In this document: piece after piece, positions 4,107 to 20,314 of the stretch
Layout: each line of letters opens with the position of its first letter
Position numbering within the stretch: position 1 is the stretch's first letter
The notes under the pieces: generated by a model
What the model was told of the DNA's origin: nothing
The model's database searches: none
What the model saw: the letters and a program-made list of their open reading frames with translations, nothing else
Position numbers and translations under genes: made by a program
Source of the DNA: an uncultured Lachnospira sp.
GTDB lineage: Bacteria > Bacillota > Clostridia > Lachnospirales > Lachnospiraceae
Reading direction: 5' to 3'
NCBI GenBank assembly: GCA_944381165.1
Contig: CALWKC010000001.1
Coordinates: 85,803-149,802 of the forward strand
DNA: 64,000 nucleotides

Positions 4107-5354
4107 CTATTTTCTTACCTGTCCGTCTCCCAGTATTACATATTTTCCGGTAGTAAGAGCCTCAAGTCCCATAGGTCCGCGGGCATGAATCTTTTGTGTG
4201 CTTATGCCAATCTCTGCTCCGAAACCGAATTCAAACCCGTCCGTAAAGCGTGTAGAGGCATTGACATAAACGGCTGCTGCGTCTATTTCATCAAGAAACT
4301 TTTTTGACGACTTATAGTCGTTTGTTATGATAGCCTCCGAGTGCCCTGTGTTATATTTGTTGATATGCTCAATCGCCTCTTCCAGAGATGACACGGTTTT
4401 TAATGAGATAATATAATCGAGATATTCCTTTCCCCAGTCCTCTTCTTTTGCAGGCACTATTCGGCTGTCAGCAGCACATGCTGTCTCATCTCCGCGCACT
4501 TCAACATTCTTTTCCTTCAATCTGTCAACAACCAAAGGTATAAATGTATCCGCAATATTTTTGTGTACCACAAGCGATTCACACGCATTGCACACTCCGA
4601 TTCTCTGTGTTTTTGCGTTGTATATTATATCGCACGCCATGTTAAAATCGGCATCCTCATGTACATAAATATGGCAGTTTCCCGTTCCTGTCTCAATTAC
4701 GGGAACAGTGCTGTTATTTACAACATTTTTGATAAGCCCGGCTCCGCCTCTTGGAATAATCACGTCAACATAATCATTCATTTTCATGAGTTCATTTACA
4801 TATTTTCTGTCTGTGTCCGATATGAGAAGGACCGCATCCTCACACAAACCTGATTTTGCGAGACTCTCTCTTATTATCCCGACCAGCTTAAGATTAGAGT
4901 TTATGGAATCACTTCCGCCTCTCAGAATAACCGCGTTGCCCGACTTAAAAGTAAGACCGAAGGCGTCAACTGTAACATTTGGACGAGATTCGTAAATAAT
5001 CCCCACAACACCCAAAGGAACACGCTTATATCCAATCATAAGCCCGTTTGGACGGGTTTTCACAGAGGTTATTTCTCCGATAGGGTCGTCAAGCGACGCA
5101 AGCTGTCTTAAGCCCTCAGCCATCCCCTCTATTCTTGCGTCAGTCAGCGTAAGCCGGTCAATAAGCGCCGGCTTCATTCCGTTTTTATGCGCAGCCTCAA
5201 GGTCAATACTGTTTGCCTCTTTAATCTCATCAGCATGCGCTTCTAATTCCCGCGCAACACTTATAAGCGCGTCATTTTTTGACGTAGCGCCCAGTTTTGC
5301 GATAATACGGGAAGCCTTTTTAGCCCGCTGCCCCATAATCTCCAATGCTTCCAT
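4107..5354 (-). CDS. proA: Gamma-glutamyl phosphate reductase (proline biosynthesis)
   Basis: Reduces gamma-glutamyl phosphate to glutamate semialdehyde with NADPH, the second step of proline synthesis. At 415 residues it is full length. Family hallmarks are the [11 protein letters not shown] segment, the nucleotide-binding [14 protein letters not shown] regions, and the catalytic cysteine in [13 protein letters not shown] (about C255). The ATG at 5354 is preceded by GGAGG with 8-nt spacing. It is the last gene of the proB operon, separated from the cyclo-ligase gene by a ~120-bp structured leader (see repeat at 5371-5464), so its translation may be controlled separately. Confidence 0.97.
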
Positions 5355-5370
5355 ATATAATCCTCCGTTT

Positions 5371-5464
5371 CCGGAGCGTTTACGTAAGAAAAATCTCGAA
5401 GAAAATCTCGCTAAGGCGATTTTTCTTCTGCGATAATGTCAGTTTGTGACGCTCCGGCACAAAC
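5371..5464 (-). repeat. Structured leader upstream of proA carrying a 22-bp element shared with ruvB
   Basis: The 22 bases at 5443-5464 are identical to 47389-47410. They form a short hairpin with arms TTTGTG and CACAAA around a 9-base loop, which on the minus strand reads CCGGAGCGT. The complement of this loop, ACGCTCCGG, lies at 5379-5371 directly upstream of the proA ribosome site, so loop-to-leader pairing is possible. A second inverted pair, AAGAAAAATC / GATTTTTCTT, sits between them. The function is unknown; a cis-acting RNA or a remnant of a dispersed repeat are both possible. Confidence 0.6.
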
Positions 5465-5477
5465 CGACAATTTATTT

Positions 5478-6032
5478 TCAATATATCCCCGACTGCGTTA
5501 TAATTACATCAGGGCAAATATCAAAAGGCTCCGACTCAAGATTTTCAACAATCTGAAAATCAAATCCAACTGCGGCTTTATAAACTTCCGTGTTGCTCTC
5601 AAGAAATCTGTCATAAAAACCGCCTCCGTAACCTGCTCTGTGATGTTCGGCGTCAAATGCAAGCCCCGGCATAACCATAAATGTATATTCCCCGGACGGA
5701 AGCCAGCATAAGCTGCTGTCCGAAACCGGCTCCATTATTCCATATGCCCCTGGTACAAGCTCTCCAAGCGATAAGATGCGCAGAAATTTCATCTGACCTC
5801 CGGTAATTTTAGGCACATATACATTCTTGCCAAGCGAAAGACAGTCACTAATAAACTCATATGTATCCGCTTCCTGATTATAGCTTACATATGTCAGAAT
5901 GTCATCAGCACGGACAAATTCCGGCAGAGCTTTAAGGCGCTTAAAAATTTCACGGCTGTATTTCTTAACCGTCTGAGTATCAAGCTTTCGCTTTTCACCG
6001 CGCACAAAATCCCTTGCTTCCTGCTTTGTCAT
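5478..6032 (-). CDS. 5-formyltetrahydrofolate cyclo-ligase
   Basis: Converts 5-formyl-THF to 5,10-methenyl-THF with ATP, salvaging folate (MTHFS/YgfA family). The ATG at 6032 (MTKQEARDFVRGEKRKL) is chosen because GGAGG lies 6 nt upstream; ten further residues are open but overlap the upstream gene without a ribosome site. That gives 184 residues, typical of the family. Motifs are the N-terminal R/K-rich helix, VYVPKI, and the C-terminal glycine-rich substrate loop AGYGGGFYDRFL. It sits inside the proline operon, an association seen in some Firmicutes without an obvious metabolic reason. Confidence 0.93.
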   Translation of the reverse strand: MTKQEARDFVRGEKRKLDTQTVKKYSREIFKRLKALPEFVRADDILTYVSYNQEADTYEFISDCLSLGKNVYVPKITGGQMKFLRILSLGELVPGAYGIMEPVSDSSLCWLPSGEYTFMVMPGLAFDAEHHRAGYGGGFYDRFLESNTEVYKAAVGFDFQIVENLESEPFDICPDVIITQSGIY

Positions 6033-6048
6033 AATAACCTCCGTGTGG

Positions 6049-7155
6049 CTAACCCTCAACAAATATCAGCAAATCATCAAAATGTTTTATGCAGCCCTTA
6101 TATTTTCCTTTTGTTTTATAAACGGAATGATGAAGATTAGGAAAACGATATACCTTTACATGGTCGCTTTTCTTGCCGAAAAAAACATTTTTCCGGGTGT
6201 GAATACTTGTAACGACTATATTATCAAAAACATATTCCACACGAATATCAGACCCCAGCTTAATCTCTGTCTTCTGAGTATTAAGATTGATAATGCGCGT
6301 TCCCCTGTCACTTTTAAGAAAATTATACGGCACATCATCTATAACGTAAATATTGTCATAGTCCTGTGCTGCAGAGGTCATATTATTCATTCTAACGCGC
6401 TTTACTTTATTCTCGTAATCATACATTATAATTTCTTCCGTGCCGGCTGAAGCATCACGCTTTACATATAAAAGCATATTGCCGCGTTTGCGCATATGAA
6501 GAAGCTCAACCGTATCGCTCCCAATGTCAAGAACATCAGTATAGGTAATTCCGAGTCCAAGCACCATGTCGGACACAAATTGATTGACATTTATAACGCC
6601 TATTGTTTTGCTGCCCACCTTAATACCGCAGTGGTTGCCGCTTAACGGAACAATTCTGTCAATACCGTTAATTCCAAGCTCCTCATTGTCAAGCTTTAAT
6701 ATTTTATTATTTTTTACATCTCTTAAAACAAGTTCAAATTTATCCTCTTCGGTTTCAAAAAGGCAGTAGTCCTGCGACATGATAAAAGTTTTCAGAGCAC
6801 CGTTTTTTTTCAGGCTTTCGGTGCTGACAATCTGTGTGTGAATCACAGAACTTTCCTGCAATGAAATCTGATACCAATAGTAGGTTATCTCTGTTTCGCG
6901 TTCATTAATCATTCTCGCCGAAGTAAATACGAAATAATCTCTCTCTTCTTCCCCGTAATAAATTTTTGTGACATTAAATTTCGGTATTTCAGGCATAATT
7001 TCAAACCGCTCGTTTGTCAGCGGATTAAACAGGAAAATCCTTTTTCCGTTGAACTCCTCAAAGCGCCGGTTATCGTCAATGACTTGAAGAAGTATTTCCC
7101 TGTTTACGGGAATATACATACCCTCCTCAAAATTCTTGACCAGCTTAATGTCCAT
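6049..7155 (-). CDS. Uncharacterised 368-residue protein in the proline operon
   Basis: I do not recognise a family. There is no signal peptide and no membrane segment, so the protein should be cytoplasmic. The sequence is mostly short beta strands with repeated patterns of the type I-(x)-hydrophobic-(x)-hydrophobic plus turn residues, and lines such as RIVPLSGNHCGIKVGSKTI and NIYVIDDVPYNFL, which suggests a beta-propeller-like fold. This is inference from pattern only. The start at 7155 has GGAGG 4 nt upstream. It lies between proB (36 bp upstream) and the cyclo-ligase gene, so it is co-transcribed with proline synthesis. Confidence 0.7.
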   Translation of the reverse strand: MDIKLVKNFEEGMYIPVNREILLQVIDDNRRFEEFNGKRIFLFNPLTNERFEIMPEIPKFNVTKIYYGEEERDYFVFTSARMINERETEITYYWYQISLQESSVIHTQIVSTESLKKNGALKTFIMSQDYCLFETEEDKFELVLRDVKNNKILKLDNEELGINGIDRIVPLSGNHCGIKVGSKTIGVINVNQFVSDMVLGLGITYTDVLDIGSDTVELLHMRKRGNMLLYVKRDASAGTEEIIMYDYENKVKRVRMNNMTSAAQDYDNIYVIDDVPYNFLKSDRGTRIINLNTQKTEIKLGSDIRVEYVFDNIVVTSIHTRKNVFFGKKSDHVKVYRFPNLHHSVYKTKGKYKGCIKHFDDLLIFVEG

Positions 7156-7190
7156 AAAACCTCCGTCTGCACATCCATGTTTAAATGAGT

Positions 7191-8039
7191 TTATATAAGT
7201 TCCAATATATCAAAATTGCTGTCCTTATGCTGTAAAAATAATGTTCCCACTTCTTCCCCGTTTATAATACGATGAATATTATTCACGTCATTTCCGTTGG
7301 TGATAACCATATCCGCTCCTGAATAATTAGCTATCTGCGCCGCGACAAGCTTTGTTGACATCCCGCCCGTGCCGACGCTGCTTCCTGAAGAAGCCTTACC
7401 CATGTGAATAAGATTATCGTCTATCTTTTCAACAAGATTTATAAACTTTGCGTCGGGATTTTCGTTAGGGTCATCCGTATAAAGCCCGTCTATATCAGAT
7501 AAGAGTATAAGCAAATCCGCTCCGGTAATAGCCACTACAAGAGCCGAAAGTTTGTCATTATCACCGAAGGTCTGAACATACTCAATCTCATAAGTTGAAA
7601 TGACATCATTCTCGTTTACAATGGGAACCGCGCCTATATGCAGAAGCTCCTTAAAAGTGTTCTCGGCGTTTGTCCTGGCAACATGGTTTAACATTGTGTA
7701 TTTTGTAAGCAGAACCTGTGCCGCAATAGTATTATATTCAGCAAATATTTTCTGGTAAACCATCATGAGCTTAGCCTGTCCTATTGCCGCACATGCCTGT
7801 TTGACAGGAAGCTCGTCCGGTCTTTCATGAAGTCCTATGGAATTTCTTCCCACCGCTATAGCTCCTGAGGAAACAAGAATAACATCCTTTCCGGAATTTT
7901 TTATATCAACCAGCGTCCTTACAAGCCGCTCCACCTTGAGAAGATTGAGCTTTCCGGTCTCGCTGTGCATAAGCGATGAAGAGCCGATTTTAACTACAAT
8001 TCTTTTTTTGTCCTTCAGAAATTTTCTTTCGTTACACAT
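7191..8039 (-). CDS. proB: Glutamate 5-kinase, short form without PUA domain
   Basis: Phosphorylates glutamate to gamma-glutamyl phosphate, the first and normally feedback-controlled step of proline synthesis. The amino acid kinase domain is complete: KIGSSSL near the N-terminus, VSSGAIAVG, NENDVIST, FGDNDKLSA, LLSDIDGLYT and the GTGGMSTK motif. At 282 residues it lacks the C-terminal PUA domain (~90 residues) found in the ~370-residue enzymes; short forms are known in Clostridia and other groups. The ATG at 8039 has AGGAG 5 nt upstream. First gene of the operon proB / unknown / cyclo-ligase / proA. Confidence 0.95.
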   Translation of the reverse strand: MCNERKFLKDKKRIVVKIGSSSLMHSETGKLNLLKVERLVRTLVDIKNSGKDVILVSSGAIAVGRNSIGLHERPDELPVKQACAAIGQAKLMMVYQKIFAEYNTIAAQVLLTKYTMLNHVARTNAENTFKELLHIGAVPIVNENDVISTYEIEYVQTFGDNDKLSALVVAITGADLLILLSDIDGLYTDDPNENPDAKFINLVEKIDDNLIHMGKASSGSSVGTGGMSTKLVAAQIANYSGADMVITNGNDVNNIHRIINGEEVGTLFLQHKDSNFDILELI

Positions 8040-8074
8040 GTCTGCTCCTGCATTTCTAAATAAATATTTAATTT

Positions 8075-8103
8075 ATTCTACACTATTTACCGTAAAAATT
8101 CAA
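8075..8103 (-). promoter_or_regulatory. Sigma-A-type promoter of the proB operon
   Basis: On the minus strand, TTGAAT (8103-8098), 17 bp, TAGAAT (8080-8075). It overlaps the 3' end of the upstream flavoprotein gene and lies 36 bp before the proB start, so the proline genes can be transcribed on their own. Confidence 0.6.
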
Positions 8104-9759
8104 CGCTATCTTTTCCGCAACCTTCATTCCGTCAACAGCAGCAGATGTTATCCCTCCGGCATAACCCGCTCCCTCGCCGCACGGATACAGGCCTTTTATA
8201 TCCGACTCACAGTTTTCGTCCCGCCAAATTCTTACCGGACTTGAAGTTCTGCTCTCCACTCCCGAAAATACCGCGTCTGCCATATCAAAGCCCTTTATAT
8301 AATTTGCAAAGCCTGTTACCCCCTCGCTTATCGCCTCACTCAGGTTATTCCCCAGCACTTCTCTTAAATTTGCAAAGCTGAAGCTGCCCCTGATACACGG
8401 ACTGACTGCCCCAAAGCCCTCAGATACCCTGTTCAGCTTAAAATCCCCGAGAAGCTGAACTGGAATATTTCCGTTTCCGCTCCTGTACGCCATACTCTCA
8501 AGCCTGCGCTGAAATTCCATGCCCGAAAGAGGCGTATCTCCGCCGTAATCTTCAGGCGTTACGGTAACTATGATTGCGCTGTTTGCATTTTTTCCGCTGC
8601 GTCCCGAATAGCTCATGCCGTTTACTGCAATTCTTTCACGCTCCGACGACGCGTTTACGACATAGCCTCCGGGGCACATACAGAACGAATAAACGCCCCT
8701 TCCCCCTGACGTCTGATAAGTCACCTTATAGTCGGCGGCGGGCATTTTGTACATCGTATCCCCGTAAGCGTTATAGTCTATAAATGACTGCGGATGCTCA
8801 AGGCGCAGTCCGACAGCAAATGATTTTGCGCTCATTGAACAGCCGCTCTCCGCAAGCATCTCAAATGTATCTCTCGCGCTGTGTCCAATGGAAAGACACA
8901 GACAGTCACATGAAAGCTCATAGCTTTCTCTGCTTTTAACGTTCTCAATCTTTACTCCCGAAAGTCTTTTCGTTTTGCCTCGGTTTTCAGTTATCAGCTC
9001 TGTAATTCTGCTGTTAAAGCGCACCTCGCCTCCCAGCTCTATAATACGGGAGCGTATCCCCGATACAATTCCCGTCAGCACATCAGTACCTATATGGGGC
9101 TTATTCATATACAGAACTGACGAATCCGCGCCAAACTCGACAAAGATTTTAAGCATCTCTTTTATCCTGCCGCTTGTGTCCTTAATCATGGTGTTTAGTT
9201 TTCCGTCCGAAAATGTTCCGGCTCCGCCCTCACCGAACTGCACGTTGGATTCTGTATTCAGCTCTCCCGTGCTCCAGAATTTTTCCACCGTTTTTTTTCG
9301 CTCTTCCACAGACTCCCCGCGCTCAATAACTATAGGACACAGTCCAGCCTGTGCCAGCATGAGCGCCGCAAACATGCCTGATGGACCAAAGCCTGCAATT
9401 ACCGGACGTTTAAACTTTCCTGCATTCACCGCTATCTCCGCTCTTGGAAAACAGTATTCATGTATCTGTGTAATTGCAGCGTTTTTAATCGTCTTTTTAT
9501 GCTTTCCCGCCATGAATTTACCTTTAAGCACATCATTTAAGCTGACGCTTTTCCCGCCTATTATGACCTCAGCGACATCCACGCTGTACACATAAAAAAT
9601 ATCCGGCTTACGTCTTGCATCAAGGGATTTTTTTGATATGCTCCATCTGACATTACAATTCTTCGGAAGCATCAGAAGGTGCCTGACGGCTGCGTCAAGC
9701 ATATCCTCCGGCTGGTCTGGCTTCAATTTTATCTGGCTTATACGCAATACTGTACTCAT
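8083..9759 (-). CDS. FAD-dependent oxidoreductase, uncharacterised dehydrogenase family (COG2509-like)
   Basis: 558 residues. The N-terminal ~90 residues form a small domain preceding the flavin domain, as in the COG2509 family. A Rossmann FAD site follows (VIAGFGPSGMFAALMLAQAG, about residues 107-126) and then EERKKTVEKFW and NVQFGEGGAGTFSDGKL, the latter a strong family signature. A C-terminal FAD motif reads GLYPCGEGAGYAGGI. The substrate of this family is not established. The ATG at 9759 has AAGG upstream. It follows another flavoprotein gene and precedes proB, whose promoter it contains. Confidence 0.88.
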   Translation of the reverse strand: MSTVLRISQIKLKPDQPEDMLDAAVRHLLMLPKNCNVRWSISKKSLDARRKPDIFYVYSVDVAEVIIGGKSVSLNDVLKGKFMAGKHKKTIKNAAITQIHEYCFPRAEIAVNAGKFKRPVIAGFGPSGMFAALMLAQAGLCPIVIERGESVEERKKTVEKFWSTGELNTESNVQFGEGGAGTFSDGKLNTMIKDTSGRIKEMLKIFVEFGADSSVLYMNKPHIGTDVLTGIVSGIRSRIIELGGEVRFNSRITELITENRGKTKRLSGVKIENVKSRESYELSCDCLCLSIGHSARDTFEMLAESGCSMSAKSFAVGLRLEHPQSFIDYNAYGDTMYKMPAADYKVTYQTSGGRGVYSFCMCPGGYVVNASSERERIAVNGMSYSGRSGKNANSAIIVTVTPEDYGGDTPLSGMEFQRRLESMAYRSGNGNIPVQLLGDFKLNRVSEGFGAVSPCIRGSFSFANLREVLGNNLSEAISEGVTGFANYIKGFDMADAVFSGVESRTSSPVRIWRDENCESDIKGLYPCGEGAGYAGGITSAAVDGMKVAEKIALNFYGK

Positions 9760-9797
9760 AAATCAACCTTTTCCCGTTATAGTTTTTTAAAACCGTT

Positions 9798-11111
9798 CTA
9801 CTTCTGCAAATCTTCAACGGCTGACTGAGCAGCCGCTCTTCCTGCCGTAATGCCGCTGCTCCACGCCCACTGAAGATTATAGCCTCCGCATTTCCCGTCA
9901 ACATCCGCTATCTCCCCGGCAAAATATAATCCGCCGCACAGACGCGACTGCATTGTATCCGAATCAAGCTGAGACAGCGCTACGCCGCCCTGACATACCT
10001 GACAATTTTCAAAGCCTTTAAAGCCTGTGATCTCAAATTCAAAATTTTTCAGAAACCTGACAAGTTTTTTTGCCCTTTTGCCTCCGAGCTGACCTATATG
10101 CATGTTTATATCAATTCCCATTGACTTGGCGGCGCCGTATACCAGCTTTTTATTAATTATTCCCGCAAAAAACTGTTCGACGCTCTTTGACGGCTCACGA
10201 AGTATTCTTATGTCAATATCATTTTCCAGCTCCTCCTGCGGTATATCAGGAAGCATATCGATAACCGCCTTAACGCTCTTTCCTGAATCCACGCCGCGAA
10301 CAGCATATCTGCTCACCTGAAATACCGGTATGCCTGAAATTCCGTAATCCGTATACTGTATTTCGCCTGTATCCGAGCAGACCTCTTCACTTTCTATGTA
10401 AAGTTTGATTTTTCCTGTGCTTCTCACGCCTGACATTGCCCGGCAGTAAGCAAAGCTGCTGACAAGCTGAACAAGAGCCGGAAGCGGCTTTATTATCTTA
10501 TGGCCGAAGCTCTCAGCAAGCCTGTAACCGCTGCCGTCAGAGCCTGTCGCCGGAGCCGCGCATGAGCCGGCCGCAATTATAAGCTTACCGCAGCATATCT
10601 GAATTTTGCTCTTAATTAAATCTTTATTTTTATTTCCCGCGTCATCGGACGGCTCCTCGGACATAATCGCGTCGATAATAAATTTTTCATTGTTTGTTTT
10701 TGTAATTCCGATGATTTCACTTCTCAGAAAAACCCGGACGTCAAGTCTGTCAAGCTCCATTCTGAGGGCGTCCTGAAGCGACGCAGCCGTCTCAGAATGA
10801 GGATAAATATATCCGTTTTTGGACTTGGGATAAACCCCGAGTTTTTTAAAAAAATCAATAACTGAATTTTCGTCAAATTTATTAATGACATTCATTACAA
10901 ATTCTGTATCGTCGTTCTGATAACATTTCCCGCTCATCTCAAGATTTGTAAAATTACATTTTCCGTTGCCTGTCTTAAGAAGCTTGCTCCCCAATCTCCT
11001 TGTATGTTCAATAACCGCTGTATTTGCGCCTCTCTCGGCTGCGGCAGCCGCAGCCGTCATTCCCGCGGCTCCTCCGCCAACAATAACGCAGTCGTATTCG
11101 TAGCGTTTCAT
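9798..11111 (-). CDS. BaiN/HI0933-family flavoprotein (NAD(P)/FAD-dependent oxidoreductase)
   Basis: 437 residues from the ATG at 11111 (MKRYEYDCVIVGGG), which has GAGGA at good spacing; the 17 additional open residues have no ribosome site. Dinucleotide-binding motif CVIVGGGAAGMTAAAAAAE at the N-terminus, then the family signature RRLGSKLLKTGNGKCNFTN, and the C-terminal FAD motif GLYFAGEIADVDGKCGGYNLQWAWSSG. Members have been called HI0933-like, YhiN, or BaiN after a bile acid dehydroxylation enzyme, but that activity cannot be inferred here because no bai genes are nearby. Confidence 0.88.
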   Translation of the reverse strand: MKRYEYDCVIVGGGAAGMTAAAAAAERGANTAVIEHTRRLGSKLLKTGNGKCNFTNLEMSGKCYQNDDTEFVMNVINKFDENSVIDFFKKLGVYPKSKNGYIYPHSETAASLQDALRMELDRLDVRVFLRSEIIGITKTNNEKFIIDAIMSEEPSDDAGNKNKDLIKSKIQICCGKLIIAAGSCAAPATGSDGSGYRLAESFGHKIIKPLPALVQLVSSFAYCRAMSGVRSTGKIKLYIESEEVCSDTGEIQYTDYGISGIPVFQVSRYAVRGVDSGKSVKAVIDMLPDIPQEELENDIDIRILREPSKSVEQFFAGIINKKLVYGAAKSMGIDINMHIGQLGGKRAKKLVRFLKNFEFEITGFKGFENCQVCQGGVALSQLDSDTMQSRLCGGLYFAGEIADVDGKCGGYNLQWAWSSGITAGRAAAQSAVEDLQK

Positions 11112-16377: not shown

Positions 16378-16408
16378 AAAACGGACATTATTCAATGAAT
16401 AATGTCCG
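16378..16408 (-). terminator. Terminator of the O-acetyltransferase / ECF sigma operon
   Basis: A perfect 12-bp stem, CGGACATTATTC (16408-16397 on the minus strand) and GAATAATGTCCG (16393-16382), with a 3-nt loop and then TTTTTG. The stop codon of the anti-sigma gene lies inside the hairpin. It separates the sigma operon from yqfC-yqfD. Confidence 0.88.
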
Positions 16409-17321
16409 CAAATTCAGGTTTTACAATATTTTCAATAATATCTTTACCTATTGCAAATTCAGGCGTTCCCATTGCTCCCGGAGCCACCTCATATTTGTCG
16501 AATACGATGACAAGCTCACCGTTCTCATTCCAATAAAAATTATGATCGCTGTCAAGAGACACAAAATCAGCCCCCGCCAGAGTTCCGTTTATCCAATAGC
16601 TGACATGTTCGTCATTATCCATTCGCTCCTGCATCTGTCTCTTTATCTCTTCCGCAATTACATCAGAATAATCATCGCCCTCAAATAAATCTCCAAGCTG
16701 AATAATATTTCCGCTGCGATTGTCTATATGATAATATCTGTAATAATGGTTTCCCGTACCGGCTCCCCCGTCATACACCGATAATTTAAGCGTAAACCAT
16801 TTATCTGTATTGGTAACTGTCTCATAGTCAACATAAACAGATTTATAGCCCTCTCCGTCAGTTTTTTCGAGATCTTTATAAAACTCTTCGACAAGCTGTG
16901 ATGTCAGCTCCTCGACGCTTTTATTGATATACTCGGCTGCATCACTGTTTTCATCCTCTATCTGAGGCACATCAACCTCCATTTTATACCTGTCGTCAGT
17001 ATAAGAATAATCGTATTTAGTAACTACTTTTACTATGTCTCCGATTACAGGAATTTTCACCAAAACCTCGGCATAGGCAGGGCTTACACTCGGAAGGAAG
17101 AATACTGTTATAAAGATAAAGCATGCTGCGGCTGCCACACACGGCAGAACATGAAATCTGTGCCTTTTTGATGCTTTAGCGGGAACAGTTTCACTCACGC
17201 TGTTTTCTTTTTCGTCCGGCAAATTCATGAGAATGCTCTCTATCTGCTCTTTAACATCATCGGGGACTTCAAAATGTTCGTCAGCCGCTTTTTTGCGGAG
17301 ATATTTATCAAATTTATTCAT
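16392..17321 (-). CDS. RsiV-like anti-sigma factor (DUF4163/DUF3298)
   Basis: 309 residues. A ~58-residue cytoplasmic N-terminus would hold the sigma factor; one membrane segment follows (about 60-80); the rest is extracytoplasmic. The outer part matches the DUF4163 and DUF3298 arrangement of RsiV: RYKMEVDVPQI, YETVTNTDKWFTLKLSVYDGGAGTGNHYYRYYHIDNRSG split over two strands, and a C-terminal VIVFDKYEVAPGAMG / FAIGKDII. At the outer end of the membrane segment, SPAYA (80-84) looks like a signal peptidase site; in Bacillus RsiV such a cut begins sigma release once lysozyme binds. Its ATG overlaps the stop of the sigma gene. Confidence 0.87.
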   Translation of the reverse strand: MNKFDKYLRKKAADEHFEVPDDVKEQIESILMNLPDEKENSVSETVPAKASKRHRFHVLPCVAAAACFIFITVFFLPSVSPAYAEVLVKIPVIGDIVKVVTKYDYSYTDDRYKMEVDVPQIEDENSDAAEYINKSVEELTSQLVEEFYKDLEKTDGEGYKSVYVDYETVTNTDKWFTLKLSVYDGGAGTGNHYYRYYHIDNRSGNIIQLGDLFEGDDYSDVIAEEIKRQMQERMDNDEHVSYWINGTLAGADFVSLDSDHNFYWNENGELVIVFDKYEVAPGAMGTPEFAIGKDIIENIVKPEFADIIH

Positions 17322-17803
17322 CAGCTAAAATCCTCCTTCAAAATCTCCCGCAGCATCTTCCTTGCACGAGATAGCTGCTGTTTTACCGCAGCTATATTTG
17401 TGCCCGTAATTTGTGCGATTTTCGATACTGAAAGATTTTCATAATAAAACAATATAACAACTGTATCATAAGGACTTTTAAGACTTTCAACTGCCTCCCG
17501 CAGCGTGAGCCTCGAAACTGTATCTTCCTCTTCTTTCCATGAAGCTTTTTCCGGCAATTCATCCACCGGCGTTATATTTTCATTTTTGCGTATCATCTCA
17601 ACTGCAGTATTGTGTACGATACGAAGTATCCACGGTTTAAAAGAACTGTCATTTTTAAGTGTGTCAATATTTTTATACGCACGGTAAACAGATTCGCTGA
17701 TTGCGTCCGAGGCATCTTCCTCATTCCTCAAAACAGAAAGTGCCAAAGAATACATTGCTCTCTCACAAATCCTTATATTTCCGCAAAAATCATCTCTATC
17801 CAT
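17321..17803 (-). CDS. ECF-family RNA polymerase sigma factor (SigV-like)
   Basis: 160 residues from the ATG at 17803, which has AGGG 8 nt upstream. Sigma region 2 covers ~1-75, with YSLALSVLRNEEDASDAISESVYRAYKNI divided by the usual helix and KPWILRIVHNTAVEMIRK for -10 recognition. Region 4 covers ~100-155, with the helix-turn-helix LSVSKIAQITGTNIAAVKQQLSRARK. There is no region 3, as in ECF factors. The start overlaps the end of the SGNH gene by 8 bp and the stop overlaps the anti-sigma start by 1 bp, so expression is tightly coupled. The RsiV-type partner makes SigV the closest functional analogue. Confidence 0.93.
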   Translation of the reverse strand: MDRDDFCGNIRICERAMYSLALSVLRNEEDASDAISESVYRAYKNIDTLKNDSSFKPWILRIVHNTAVEMIRKNENITPVDELPEKASWKEEEDTVSRLTLREAVESLKSPYDTVVILFYYENLSVSKIAQITGTNIAAVKQQLSRARKMLREILKEDFS

Positions 17804-18764
17804 CAAAGTTGCCCTCGCTTAACCTAAGGGCAGTCTGTTCCATAATCCATCTGCCCCAATCTATATAATACTTTGCATAAAGATGTGCATTATCCTGGGA
17901 TTTATCAGCAGACAAATTACCTCCTTCATCGTCAAATAATATATTTGCATCCAGATAAAATATATCATTTCCATTGGCAAATTTTGAAATTGCGTCGTTA
18001 AATCTGTTTATTGCCGGATTATTAATAACATTGTCTGTGTCCGAACGGCTTTTCGTAACATGGAGGTTTGCCTGAACAAATATTACAGCTTCCGGCTGTT
18101 TATCTCTTATAAAATCTATAAGCTTTCCGTACTCTGCTACTGTGGTGTCAAAATCATATCCCATTTCATTTATGCCAAGCATGAGATATATTTTCCCATA
18201 TTTTTTACCGCTAAGCAACTCATTTAATGTTAATTTTCCAACATTCGGAACAGAGACAGGTTTTTTATGAATGTTATATACGCTCATTCCAACAGTGGCA
18301 AAGAAATCGGCGCTGTCAATTCCCGAATACTCCGACAGTCCCACCGTTCTCGAATCCCCGATAAAAAGAGTATCATTCATTGATATGGTAATATCGCCGG
18401 GCTCACCGGGAGAATTATCCTCCGGCTTGGTAATATCGCTTCCGGTATTATTTTCCTCCTGATTTGTCTGTTCTTCCTCGATAATATTATTCTCACCGGC
18501 AGTATTATTTTGCTCATTTTCCGGCGAAGTCTCATCAGAATAAAATGATTCAGACTGACTTTCCGGCTCAGACTGTTCTTCTGATGAAGAACTCTCGTTT
18601 TGGGACGTCTTTTCAGAGACATATTGACCGCCTGTATTCTGCATGCCCGAAGGCTTCCCTGATGCAATATTGCCGGCTGCGGTATTTCGCAGGAAAATCA
18701 GCATCACGCAGAATGAAATCATAGCTATATATGAAAAAAATGTAAGAATATTTGACTTTTTCAT
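17796..18764 (-). CDS. Membrane-anchored SGNH/GDSL-type esterase (O-acetyltransferase partner)
   Basis: 322 residues from the ATG at 18764 (GGAGG 8 nt upstream). One N-terminal membrane anchor (~5-25), then a ~100-residue Ser/Glu/Asn/Pro-rich linker that could span the wall, then an SGNH fold. The nucleophile block is FIGDSRTVG, followed by LMLGINEMG (Gly/Asn of blocks II-III) and the C-terminal catalytic pair in DNAHLYAKYY (Asp and His). It sits directly after the MBOAT gene, an arrangement like PatA/PatB or a split OatA, where the acetyl group is moved out by the MBOAT protein and transferred to the glycan by the SGNH domain. The acceptor is inferred, not shown. Confidence 0.85.
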   Translation of the reverse strand: MKKSNILTFFSYIAMISFCVMLIFLRNTAAGNIASGKPSGMQNTGGQYVSEKTSQNESSSSEEQSEPESQSESFYSDETSPENEQNNTAGENNIIEEEQTNQEENNTGSDITKPEDNSPGEPGDITISMNDTLFIGDSRTVGLSEYSGIDSADFFATVGMSVYNIHKKPVSVPNVGKLTLNELLSGKKYGKIYLMLGINEMGYDFDTTVAEYGKLIDFIRDKQPEAVIFVQANLHVTKSRSDTDNVINNPAINRFNDAISKFANGNDIFYLDANILFDDEGGNLSADKSQDNAHLYAKYYIDWGRWIMEQTALRLSEGNFDG

Positions 18765-18793
18765 CCTGAATACCTCCATTTAAAGCGCTGCCG

Positions 18794-20188
18794 CTAAAAT
18801 CTGAAATATAAAAACGGGTCGTCAAGACCTCGGTACATACAGTAAACACTCGCAATAAATATCACGGCAAGTATGCCTGCAATCACAAAGCGGTTTTTGA
18901 TAAGCTTCAGAATATTAAACGGGAGATGTGTTGAGAATAACAGTCCCGCAGCCAAAAACGGCCAGTAAAGCTTTAAGTATTTAATGTAATCATACCTGAA
19001 TATAGACCATACTCCCTGCCCGAAAAACGGAAACAGCCTTGTAAAAAACACTCCGAGCTGTCCCATGTTGTCTATTGCAAAAACAGCCCATGTAAGAGGA
19101 ATCAAAACCAGCATATAAATATGCCCAGCCGCCGGAAATCTTTCAAGAAATTTTCCTATGTACAGTTTTTCTATTATTATTATCAGCGAAATAATAAACC
19201 CCCACAGAACGAAATTATATCCTGCTCCATGCCATATTCCAGTGAGCATCCATACAATCAACAGGTTTCTTACCGTCGCAGCTTTACCCTTTCTGTTTCC
19301 TCCAAGCGGAATATATACATAATCTCTGAACCAGCTCCCCAGCGTTATATGCCAGCGTCTCCAGAACTCTGTCATCGAGCGGCTCAGATACGGAAAATCA
19401 AAATTCTTAGGAAGATTAAACCCAAGCATTTTACCGAGTCCTATCGCCATAAGCGAATACCCGAAGAAATCGAAATATATCTGAAAGGTATATGCAAGAA
19501 TTGCCATCCACGCAAGAGGCGTAGATATGCTCTCAAAACCTATCGCCAATACATCTGTCCAAAGCTTCCCCACCGGATTTGCAAGCAGTACCTTTAACCC
19601 CAGACCGAATACAAATATCCCCACGCCGTTTAAAACTGTCTCAAGCCTTATTTTTCTGCGCCGCAGTTCGTTTCTGACCTGTCCGTAGGTTACAATAGGT
19701 CCGGCTATAAGCTGCTCAAACATTGATATATAGACGCTGAATCTCAGAAGGCTCTTTTCCGCCGGAACGGTACATCTGTAAACATCAACTATATACGAAA
19801 TTCCCTGGAATGTATAAAATGAAATTCCTATAGGAAGAATTATATCAACAGATATATCAAAACCCGGAATTCTGCTGTTCATCTCGCTCAGCACGAAGCT
19901 GAGATACTTGACTGTAAAAAGGCAAATAAGATGATAAACAACCCCCGTGACAAGAAATACTTTTTTGTACTTCTGATACCTTTCTATTAAAAGCCCGACA
20001 AAAAAATCAACCAGTATACTTACAAGAAACAAAATAAAATGCTCGGGGTGGTCAATAGTTCCAACAAAATAAAAACACATGCTGCCCGCAAACAATATCT
20101 GATTTTTATGCCTGTTTGGAAAAAGATAATACAGCCCGAAAAATACAGGCAGAAAAATAAAAATAAACTTAATACTGCTGAATACCAT
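18794..20188 (-). CDS. MBOAT-family O-acyltransferase (AlgI/PatA/DltB-like)
   Basis: 464 residues, ~11 membrane segments. The MBOAT core is clear: LPIGISFYTFQGISYIVD, the amphipathic re-entrant region with MTEFWRRWHITLGSWFRDYVYIPLGGNRKG broken at usual positions, and the catalytic histidine in LTGIWHGAGYNFVLWG (~residue 325). It would pass acyl, usually acetyl, groups across the membrane. DltB is unlikely because no dltA/C/D genes adjoin. First gene of a four-gene operon with the SGNH protein, the ECF sigma factor and the RsiV-like protein. Confidence 0.9.
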   Translation of the reverse strand: MVFSSIKFIFIFLPVFFGLYYLFPNRHKNQILFAGSMCFYFVGTIDHPEHFILFLVSILVDFFVGLLIERYQKYKKVFLVTGVVYHLICLFTVKYLSFVLSEMNSRIPGFDISVDIILPIGISFYTFQGISYIVDVYRCTVPAEKSLLRFSVYISMFEQLIAGPIVTYGQVRNELRRRKIRLETVLNGVGIFVFGLGLKVLLANPVGKLWTDVLAIGFESISTPLAWMAILAYTFQIYFDFFGYSLMAIGLGKMLGFNLPKNFDFPYLSRSMTEFWRRWHITLGSWFRDYVYIPLGGNRKGKAATVRNLLIVWMLTGIWHGAGYNFVLWGFIISLIIIIEKLYIGKFLERFPAAGHIYMLVLIPLTWAVFAIDNMGQLGVFFTRLFPFFGQGVWSIFRYDYIKYLKLYWPFLAAGLLFSTHLPFNILKLIKNRFVIAGILAVIFIASVYCMYRGLDDPFLYFRF

Positions 20189-20225: not shown

Positions 20226-20254
20226 TAGACGCGCAAAAAATACAAAAGGTGACA
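20226..20254 (-). promoter_or_regulatory. Candidate ECF-type promoter of the MBOAT operon
   Basis: On the minus strand, TGTCACC (20254-20248), 16 bp, CGTCTA (20231-20226). ECF promoters typically have an AAC-containing -35 and a CGTC -10 at this spacing; the -10 matches well and the -35 (TGTCACC against TGAAACC) at five of seven positions. It lies between the rpsU terminator and the MBOAT start and would allow autoregulation by the operon's own sigma factor. An AT-rich TATATTATATAAT downstream could also serve sigma-A. Confidence 0.5.
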
Positions 20255-20263
20255 AAAAAACAG

Positions 20264-20293
20264 AAAAAAAGATGAGCCCCATAGGAGCTCATC
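20264..20293 (-). terminator. Rho-independent terminator of rpsU
   Basis: GATGAGC (20293-20287 on the minus strand) and GCTCATC (20277-20271), a 9-nt loop, and then seven Ts. It lies 22 bp after the rpsU stop. Confidence 0.9.
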
Positions 20294-20314
20294 TGTAATA
20301 AAAGTCATTTAATA

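Follow-up and report, generated by a model that had tools for sequence, protein, structure and literature searches.

The closest described relatives of the locus reported here are the sigma-V operons of Bacillus subtilis and Clostridioides difficile, of which the first, sigV-rsiV-oatA, carries the O-acetyltransferase OatA (PMC5014341) and the second, csfV-rsiV-pdaV (lbpA), carries PdaV, a deacetylase (PMC9044953). OatA is an AT3 membrane domain fused to an SGNH domain, AT3 being unrelated to MBOAT, and PMC12148441 assigns peptidoglycan O-acetylation in Gram-positive bacteria to this single AT3-SGNH protein, and peptidoglycan acetylation by MBOAT-SGNH enzymes to Gram-negative bacteria. Here we describe a four-gene unit in 64,000 nucleotides of an uncultured Lachnospira sp. 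(contig CALWKC010000001.1, positions 85,803 to 149,802; this whole stretch is the window), in which an extracytoplasmic function (ECF) sigma factor and an RsiV-like anti-sigma factor are encoded together with an MBOAT membrane O-acyltransferase and an SGNH protein. With moderate confidence, we interpret the unit as an autoregulated sigV-rsiV lysozyme-response operon whose cargo is a PatAB/AlgIJ-type MBOAT plus SGNH O-acetyltransferase instead of OatA or PdaV.

All four frames were open on the minus strand where a preliminary description of this DNA had placed them, and its four family assignments were borne out by Pfam and NCBIfam, with the RsiV and SigV models scoring below their cut-offs. 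The features of the unit, in window coordinates with protein lengths in amino acids (aa), are as follows.

20270..20294, minus strand: intrinsic terminator predicted behind rpsU, bounding the unit upstream (11-bp stem and T-run)
20228..20254, minus strand: putative ECF-type promoter with conserved -35 box, TGTCACCTTTT - 12 nt - CGTC(TA), with the MBOAT ATG some 40 nt downstream
18794..20188, minus strand: MBOAT membrane O-acyltransferase, 464 aa (PF03062, E 4.9e-25)
18797..18814, minus strand: FLYFRF at the MBOAT C-terminus, the FXYXXF acyl-shuttle motif by alignment (motif defined in PMC12148441)
17796..18764, minus strand: SGNH/GDSL protein, 322 aa (Lipase_GDSL_2 PF13472, E 6.6e-14)
17321..17803, minus strand: SigV-like ECF sigma factor, 160 aa (Sigma70_r2 1.8e-12, Sigma70_r4_2 2.1e-12)
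16392..17321, minus strand: RsiV-like anti-sigma factor, 309 aa (DUF3298 2.2e-19; NCBIfam RsiV NF052658, 240 bits)
17070..17078, minus strand: AYA, residues 82-84 of the RsiV-like protein, candidate signal-peptidase site-1 cleavage site between SPAYA and EV (sequence and alignment with other RsiVs)
16381..16409, minus strand: intrinsic terminator predicted across the rsiV stop, bounding the unit downstream (13-bp stem and T-run)

The overlaps and close spacing noted earlier agree with the distances we obtained: 29 nt separate the MBOAT stop from the SGNH ATG, SGNH and sigma overlap by 8 nt and sigma and RsiV by 1 nt. Read from the promoter through MBOAT, SGNH, sigma and RsiV, the four genes look like one closed transcription unit because predicted terminators flank both ends; terminator-like sites in the scanned stretch numbered 9, against a mean of 3.7 after shuffling. 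The unit lies between rpsU upstream and yqfC-yqfD-phoH downstream, contains no glycan or teichoic gene besides MBOAT and SGNH, and an Rfam search of the window gave no match. Like sigV-rsiV-oatA of B. subtilis (PMC5014341), it appears to combine within one operon an ECF sigma factor, an RsiV-family anti-sigma factor and a surface O-acetyltransferase, but it has MBOAT and SGNH on two genes in place of one AT3-SGNH protein, and the enzymes come first, so that the gene order is turned around, as had been noted. With the C. difficile operon (PMC9044953) it would share sigma-V and RsiV beside a wall-modifying enzyme, while the cargo there is a deacetylase and the window unit has no second RsiV-like protein.

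The preliminary description spoke of a split O-acetyltransferase and compared it with OatA: an O-acyltransferase pair on separate genes is present, whereas OatA cut in two is not, the membrane part being an MBOAT (PF03062) on its own gene and not AT3. Because OatA uses the unrelated AT3 domain, the MBOAT-SGNH pair would replace the role of OatA and not represent its two halves. In the MBOAT, the WHG histidine His320 and the tail residues F459, Y461 and F464 were invariant in 19 of 19 aligned sequences, all of which thus carry the catalytic His and the C-terminal FXYXXF of PatA/AlgI-type MBOATs. The tyrosine of this tail carries the acetyl group in PatA, and in Dlt the tail is provided by a separate protein, DltX (PMC12148441). 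The best NCBIfam model for the MBOAT was DltB (144 bits, cut-off 375), but we rejected a DltB/DltD identity on this low score and on the shuttle tail of the MBOAT itself, which distinguishes it from Dlt with its separate DltX shuttle and DltC carrier. Besides the weak DltB match, no dlt family was found by Pfam or NCBIfam among the ten window proteins scanned. The same genome holds three more MBOAT genes (L230, L231 and L232 on contigs C22, C17 and C7), all ending in FXYXXF and each adjoining a frame of 352-477 aa that is a possible partner, which makes four MBOAT loci in the genome.

The predicted model of the SGNH protein (mean predicted local distance difference test score, pLDDT, 76.7; domain blocks mostly >90) shows an N-terminal helix at 3-29, a likely membrane anchor, followed by a long low-confidence linker and the SGNH domain, whose blocks read GDSR, Gly159, GINE and DNAH, with G136-R139, G159, N199, D291 and H294 invariant in the 19 aligned sequences. 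Foldseek returned SGNH esterases and transferases generally, among which PatB (8tlb, from C. jejuni) ranked 41st with E 7.6e-6. DltD membership was rejected on Pfam, the catalytic blocks and the fold search, and PatB membership was rejected as well: PatB belongs to the DUF459 family and has Ser or Asn in place of the block-II Gly (PMC12148441), while at E 0.001 only PF13472 was reported for the window protein and Gly159 is invariant. The pair thus resembles Gram-negative PatA/PatB in having an MBOAT with a C-terminal FXYXXF and a separate, probably membrane-anchored SGNH protein, and differs from it in the retained block-II Gly and PF13472 assignment of the SGNH part, in the absence of Ape1 from the unit, and in its apparent ECF sigma control and its occurrence in Clostridia. 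PatA1/PatB1, which act on a secondary cell wall polysaccharide, and DltB/DltX/DltD are likewise Gram-positive MBOAT-SGNH transferases, but PatB1 belongs to the DHHW family, with a permuted fold and KDS/TDHHW motifs (PMC9487903). From motifs and models, we expect the window pair to be PatA/AlgI-like in mechanism, with an SGNH part outside the PatB family.

As expected of SigV (ECF30), the sigma factor has regions 2 and 4 and adjoins rsiV. When the -35 box pattern TGTCAC-N(0-2)-TTTT was sought within 150 bp upstream of genes, it preceded MBOAT in 11 of the 15 linked loci, which are kin and so not independent, and in 8 of the 15 it was followed by CGTC at the expected spacing, compared with 25 of 20,000 random 150-bp windows. 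Both sigma-RsiV operons headed by a NodB-domain deacetylase (L162 and L164) had the box upstream of the deacetylase, and these two members of the RsiV clade of the window resemble the C. difficile operon in their deacetylase cargo. Among seven other operons of close relatives, the box lay at the leading gene or close to it in four (SGNH in L146, sigma in L143, L148 and L150). These results suggest that this is the sigma factor's own promoter, expressing whatever cargo comes first in the operon. The -35 box of the window, TGTCACCTTTT, differs from the TGAAACTTTTT ahead of part of the other Lachnospiraceae sigV genes; TGAAACTTTTT-CGTCTAA or a close variant stood beside sigma in 24 of 98 RsiV loci (some loci counted twice). 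A sigV-type promoter also preceded 3 of 22 unlinked MBOATs (L265, L267 and L112), and all three were among the 13 with an RsiV match in the genome, against none of the 9 without, which is suggestive only; at L265, an unlinked MBOAT-SGNH pair in Hungatella, the promoter resembles the sigV promoter of that genome. The conservation of the promoter is our evidence that the sigma factor would transcribe from TGTCACCTTTT-CGTCTA and thereby regulate its own operon.

The RsiV-like protein consists of an N-terminal part, one hydrophobic segment and a DUF3298 ectodomain, and the AYA motif follows the hydrophobic segment as read from the sequence and the alignment; an AXA signal-peptidase site in RsiV has been described (PMC4183432), as has the proteolysis mechanism (PMC4183432, PMC9044953). 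The comparison with the RsiV-lysozyme structure that the preliminary description had proposed showed homology to 5jen both by sequence (phmmer E 4.9e-33) and by fold, since the predicted model (mean pLDDT 81.9; helices at 62-89 of low confidence) had 5jen_C as its top Foldseek match in the PDB, with a template modelling (TM) score of 0.90 normalised to 5jen and a root-mean-square deviation of 2.0. That description would have taken a model with no lysozyme-binding surface as a refutation; the predicted fold is that of 5jen. The lysozyme-contact residues of B. subtilis RsiV include S169, P259 and Y261, of which Tyr261 contacts E35 of lysozyme (PMC5014341). Of the contact residues, the window protein keeps Y255, E256, P259 and G260; all 22 members of the RsiV clade to which it belongs have Y255, P259 and G260, and 21 of them have E256. 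Judged from these residues and the modelled fold, the window RsiV would probably bind lysozyme. Also common in the family (many of L080-L107) are DUF3298 anti-sigma factors of a second kind, with IAPG plus varied residues and no Tyr261, which may sense other ligands; L099 and L102 have RsiV/DUF3298-like stretches within unusually long frames of 880 and 758 aa, where they may be joined to further domains, and the window genome has a second, weaker DUF3298 match (L002 on G000:C11, E 6.1e-5, a 386-aa frame).

Conservation of the four-gene order, which had been suggested as a check, was followed in two samples. A search with six cluster RsiVs gave 433 loci, of which the best 80 were analysed, and MBOAT-SGNH-Sig-RsiV occurred in 14 of these 80 (L141, L142, L144, L145, L149, L152, L155, L156, L158, L160, L168, L172, L179 and L206), a fraction that is not a prevalence, the query having come from cluster-bearing loci. 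The SGNH frame of L158 and the sigma frame of L179 were hidden by antisense open reading frames (ORFs), and both were confirmed on inspection. SGNH-Sig-RsiV was present in two of the best 80 (L146, and L147 at a contig end), and Sig-RsiV preceded MBOAT-SGNH in two (L167, with a gene between, and L208). The less biased sample comprised 200 family genomes with 31 RsiV loci of >=120 bits, where the ORF caller lost some frames under antisense ORFs; three of the 31 were linked, L071 and L073 in the canonical order and L067 in another. Within the genus of the window (22 genomes), six genomes matched RsiV: the canonical order was present in the window, G219 and G215, G217 had a weak RsiV and another gene order, and in the remaining two genomes the match fell at a contig end or close to one. 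As to spread beyond the family, 75 of 392 order genomes had RsiV relatives with E up to 1e-30, and the 28 next-best RsiV loci, some from the same family, had no MBOAT or SGNH match in their 1.5 kb flanks. Three module loci (L145, L155 and L158) carry taxon labels outside Lachnospiraceae.

A tie of the module to the yqfC-yqfD site was rejected, YqfC or YqfD being found among the best 80 only in L141 (the sister species, same contig as L108), and yqfD lies on another contig in G215 and G217. A survey of 40 selected neighbours of RsiV operons, which took in the two deacetylases, gave three deacetylases, three sodium:dicarboxylate symporters and two amidases, the rest being mixed. Hungatella hathewayi DSM 13479 has two sigma-RsiV pairs in tandem (L198, 5478-8559; L053 record). 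L268 (G184) is the same locus as L168 and L179, with MBOAT-SGNH but without the sigma-RsiV pair between SGNH and the next gene, which would mean that the sensor was either acquired or lost alongside these enzymes.

In the MBOAT tree, which mixes rows picked by RsiV with rows picked by MBOAT score, the 15 canonical rows (window included) fell in one 23-row subclade (support 100/99) together with seven unlinked rows and L208, while L067, L167 and L110 were placed outside it at different positions; well-supported branches forced at least four label changes for each group. In the RsiV tree, 15 of 17 linked rows (L146 and L147 included) fell in the 22-row clade of the window, which also contains the two deacetylase loci and five further rows, whereas L168 and L179 fell in a different clade and L067, L208 and L167 elsewhere; supported branches, here by the Shimodaira-Hasegawa-like approximate likelihood ratio test (SH-aLRT) only, forced at least three changes for the linked label and at least two for the other order. 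Label changes on both trees count gain and loss alike. MBOAT and RsiV distances were correlated (Mantel r 0.72 for 17 loci, r 0.79 for the 12-locus main set, p 0.0002 each).

An AT3 search found no OatA-type frame in seven cluster genomes (G000, G219, G215, G217, G115, G065 and G171), draft assemblies in which a broken gene could be hidden. The AT3 frames long enough for a fusion were four (G000, G219, G217 and G065), all of them AT3-racemases, the others being of 461 aa or less, and the sole AT3 match in the window genome was a VanT-like AT3-racemase and not OatA. That frame belongs to a set which is vanG-like by sequence appearance (L229, G000:C2:17000-30000, at 4870-11084) and comprises a response regulator, a histidine kinase, a D-Ala ligase-like protein, a 282-aa protein and the VanT-like AT3-alanine racemase; G219 has a matching AT3-racemase frame.

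In the lysozyme-response operon that we favour, RsiV would hold the sigma factor at the membrane until a muramidase, most likely host lysozyme, binds its ectodomain; signal peptidase would then cleave RsiV at AYA, a site-2 protease would complete the cleavage, and the freed sigma factor would transcribe its own operon, so that MBOAT, SGNH, sigma and RsiV rise together. The MBOAT would transfer acetyl from acetyl-CoA onto the Tyr of its FLYFRF tail, and the SGNH serine would hand it to an outer glycan, most likely the MurNAc of peptidoglycan, which would make the wall a poorer lysozyme substrate.

A number of observations weigh against this interpretation, and the first of them concern linkage and control. 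The sigma factor scored 115 bits with NCBIfam SigV NF053879 (cut-off 190), and the -35 box was missing upstream of MBOAT in 4 of the 15 linked loci and absent from 3 of the 7 other operons (L153, L154 and L175). A looser promoter pattern had one match in the window genome and one in the backwards control, and the strict pattern matched 16 of 397 family genomes (cluster genomes G000 and G115 included, cluster genome G065 unmatched, eight matches in G650) with about 50 by hand count in the backwards control; since genome-wide matches do not exceed the control, the evidence for the promoter is its conserved position and not its count. MBOAT matches occurred in 183 of 200 family genomes, and close unlinked MBOATs exist, such as that of G101 with 64% identity and no RsiV match. 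Such relatives, and the presence or absence of sigma-RsiV beside the same enzymes (L268 compared with L168 and L179), would fit the insertion of sigV-rsiV next to a common MBOAT-SGNH pair, the two being fortuitous neighbours with no regulatory link. Against this stand the overlapping genes, the conserved box at the operon head, the predicted terminators at both ends, the correlated divergence and the several changes that the linkages would require on each tree; co-location of the four genes by chance is unlikely, and we consider neighbours lacking any regulatory link very improbable.

The sensor raises further points of this kind. The RsiV score of 240 bits falls slightly short of the curated equivalog cut-off of 250, Tyr261 is replaced by Ala in the window and present in just 7 of the 22 clade members, and the S168-S169 loop differs from that of B. 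subtilis, reading T-G by MAFFT and G-T by phmmer in an uncertain alignment. The RsiV clade might therefore sense something besides c-type lysozyme, such as another muramidase or a wall fragment, with the enzymes still modifying the envelope, and some DUF4163/DUF3298 proteins, e.g. Rv1980c, do not bind lysozyme according to PMC5014341. The same paper nevertheless reports that B. subtilis RsiV with Y261A alone still bound lysozyme (dissociation constant 10 nM), activation being hit harder than binding, and that its S169 mutant was Trp and not Gly; Gly occupies this position in 75 of 97 relatives by MAFFT (the window has Gly by MAFFT, Thr by phmmer), and the deacetylase-linked RsiVs likewise have Ala261. 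RsiVs without Tyr261 made up 10 of 19 module-linked and 14 of 78 other sequences (window left out), raw counts that lean towards the loss as a mark of the module, and on the tree the loss showed no association with the module in 5 independent pairs, at least 6 informative pairs being needed to reach 0.05. A different ligand seems unlikely to us, and lysozyme would be the signal of the operon as we read it.

The remaining points concern the enzymes and their acceptor. Esterases outranked PatB in the SGNH fold search, and the SGNH protein retains the usual Gly of block II, which is substituted in PatB. Moreover, MBOAT-SGNH pairs serve several polymers and MBOATs are as frequent in the family as stated above, so that peptidoglycan is not implied by their presence. 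The same switch could serve acetylation (or another acylation) of teichoic acid, a secondary wall polymer or a capsule, changing charge or shielding and not MurNAc, and this would be the main rival to peptidoglycan acetylation in response to lysozyme, which is the simplest reading. Where the acceptor of a Gram-positive MBOAT-SGNH pair is known, it is secondary cell wall polysaccharide (PatA1/PatB1) or cellulose, and for Dlt it is teichoic acid (PMC9487903, PMC12148441); sigma-V partly controls dlt in C. difficile (PMC9044953), and DltB was the top NCBIfam model of the window MBOAT. In favour of peptidoglycan, a NodB polysaccharide deacetylase occupies the same place behind the same -35 box in two members of the RsiV clade, OatA was not found by the AT3 search in the seven cluster-bearing genomes, and the four-gene unit has no further glycan or teichoic gene. 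On balance, we regard another acceptor as possible but somewhat improbable.

Among the open-licence papers listed by full-text searches, we found no description of MBOAT-SGNH genes in a sigV-rsiV operon, which is not proof of absence, and no paper treating RsiV together with MBOAT. Further, we tentatively propose, as a possibility that we would not yet call probable, that gut Clostridia share a portable cassette for sensing lysozyme and acetylating the wall, in which one promoter drives an MBOAT-SGNH peptidoglycan O-acetyltransferase replacing OatA in a Gram-positive, and in which the RsiVs form a separate clade that has a -35 box of its own and an altered ligand loop, Tyr261 being mostly lost, and is maybe tuned to other muramidases; sensor and enzymes would have been joined more than once, with a deacetylase in place of the enzyme pair elsewhere in the clade. 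The cluster would offer a simple route to the acceptor, by deletion followed by analysis of muropeptides, and natural variants of the RsiV-lysozyme interface. The operon would be a variant of a known lysozyme defence which elsewhere uses a different enzyme, and, if this is true, gut commensals that put MBOAT-SGNH cargo under a lysozyme-type sensor in one operon would cut across the division between OatA in Gram-positive and MBOAT-SGNH in Gram-negative bacteria.

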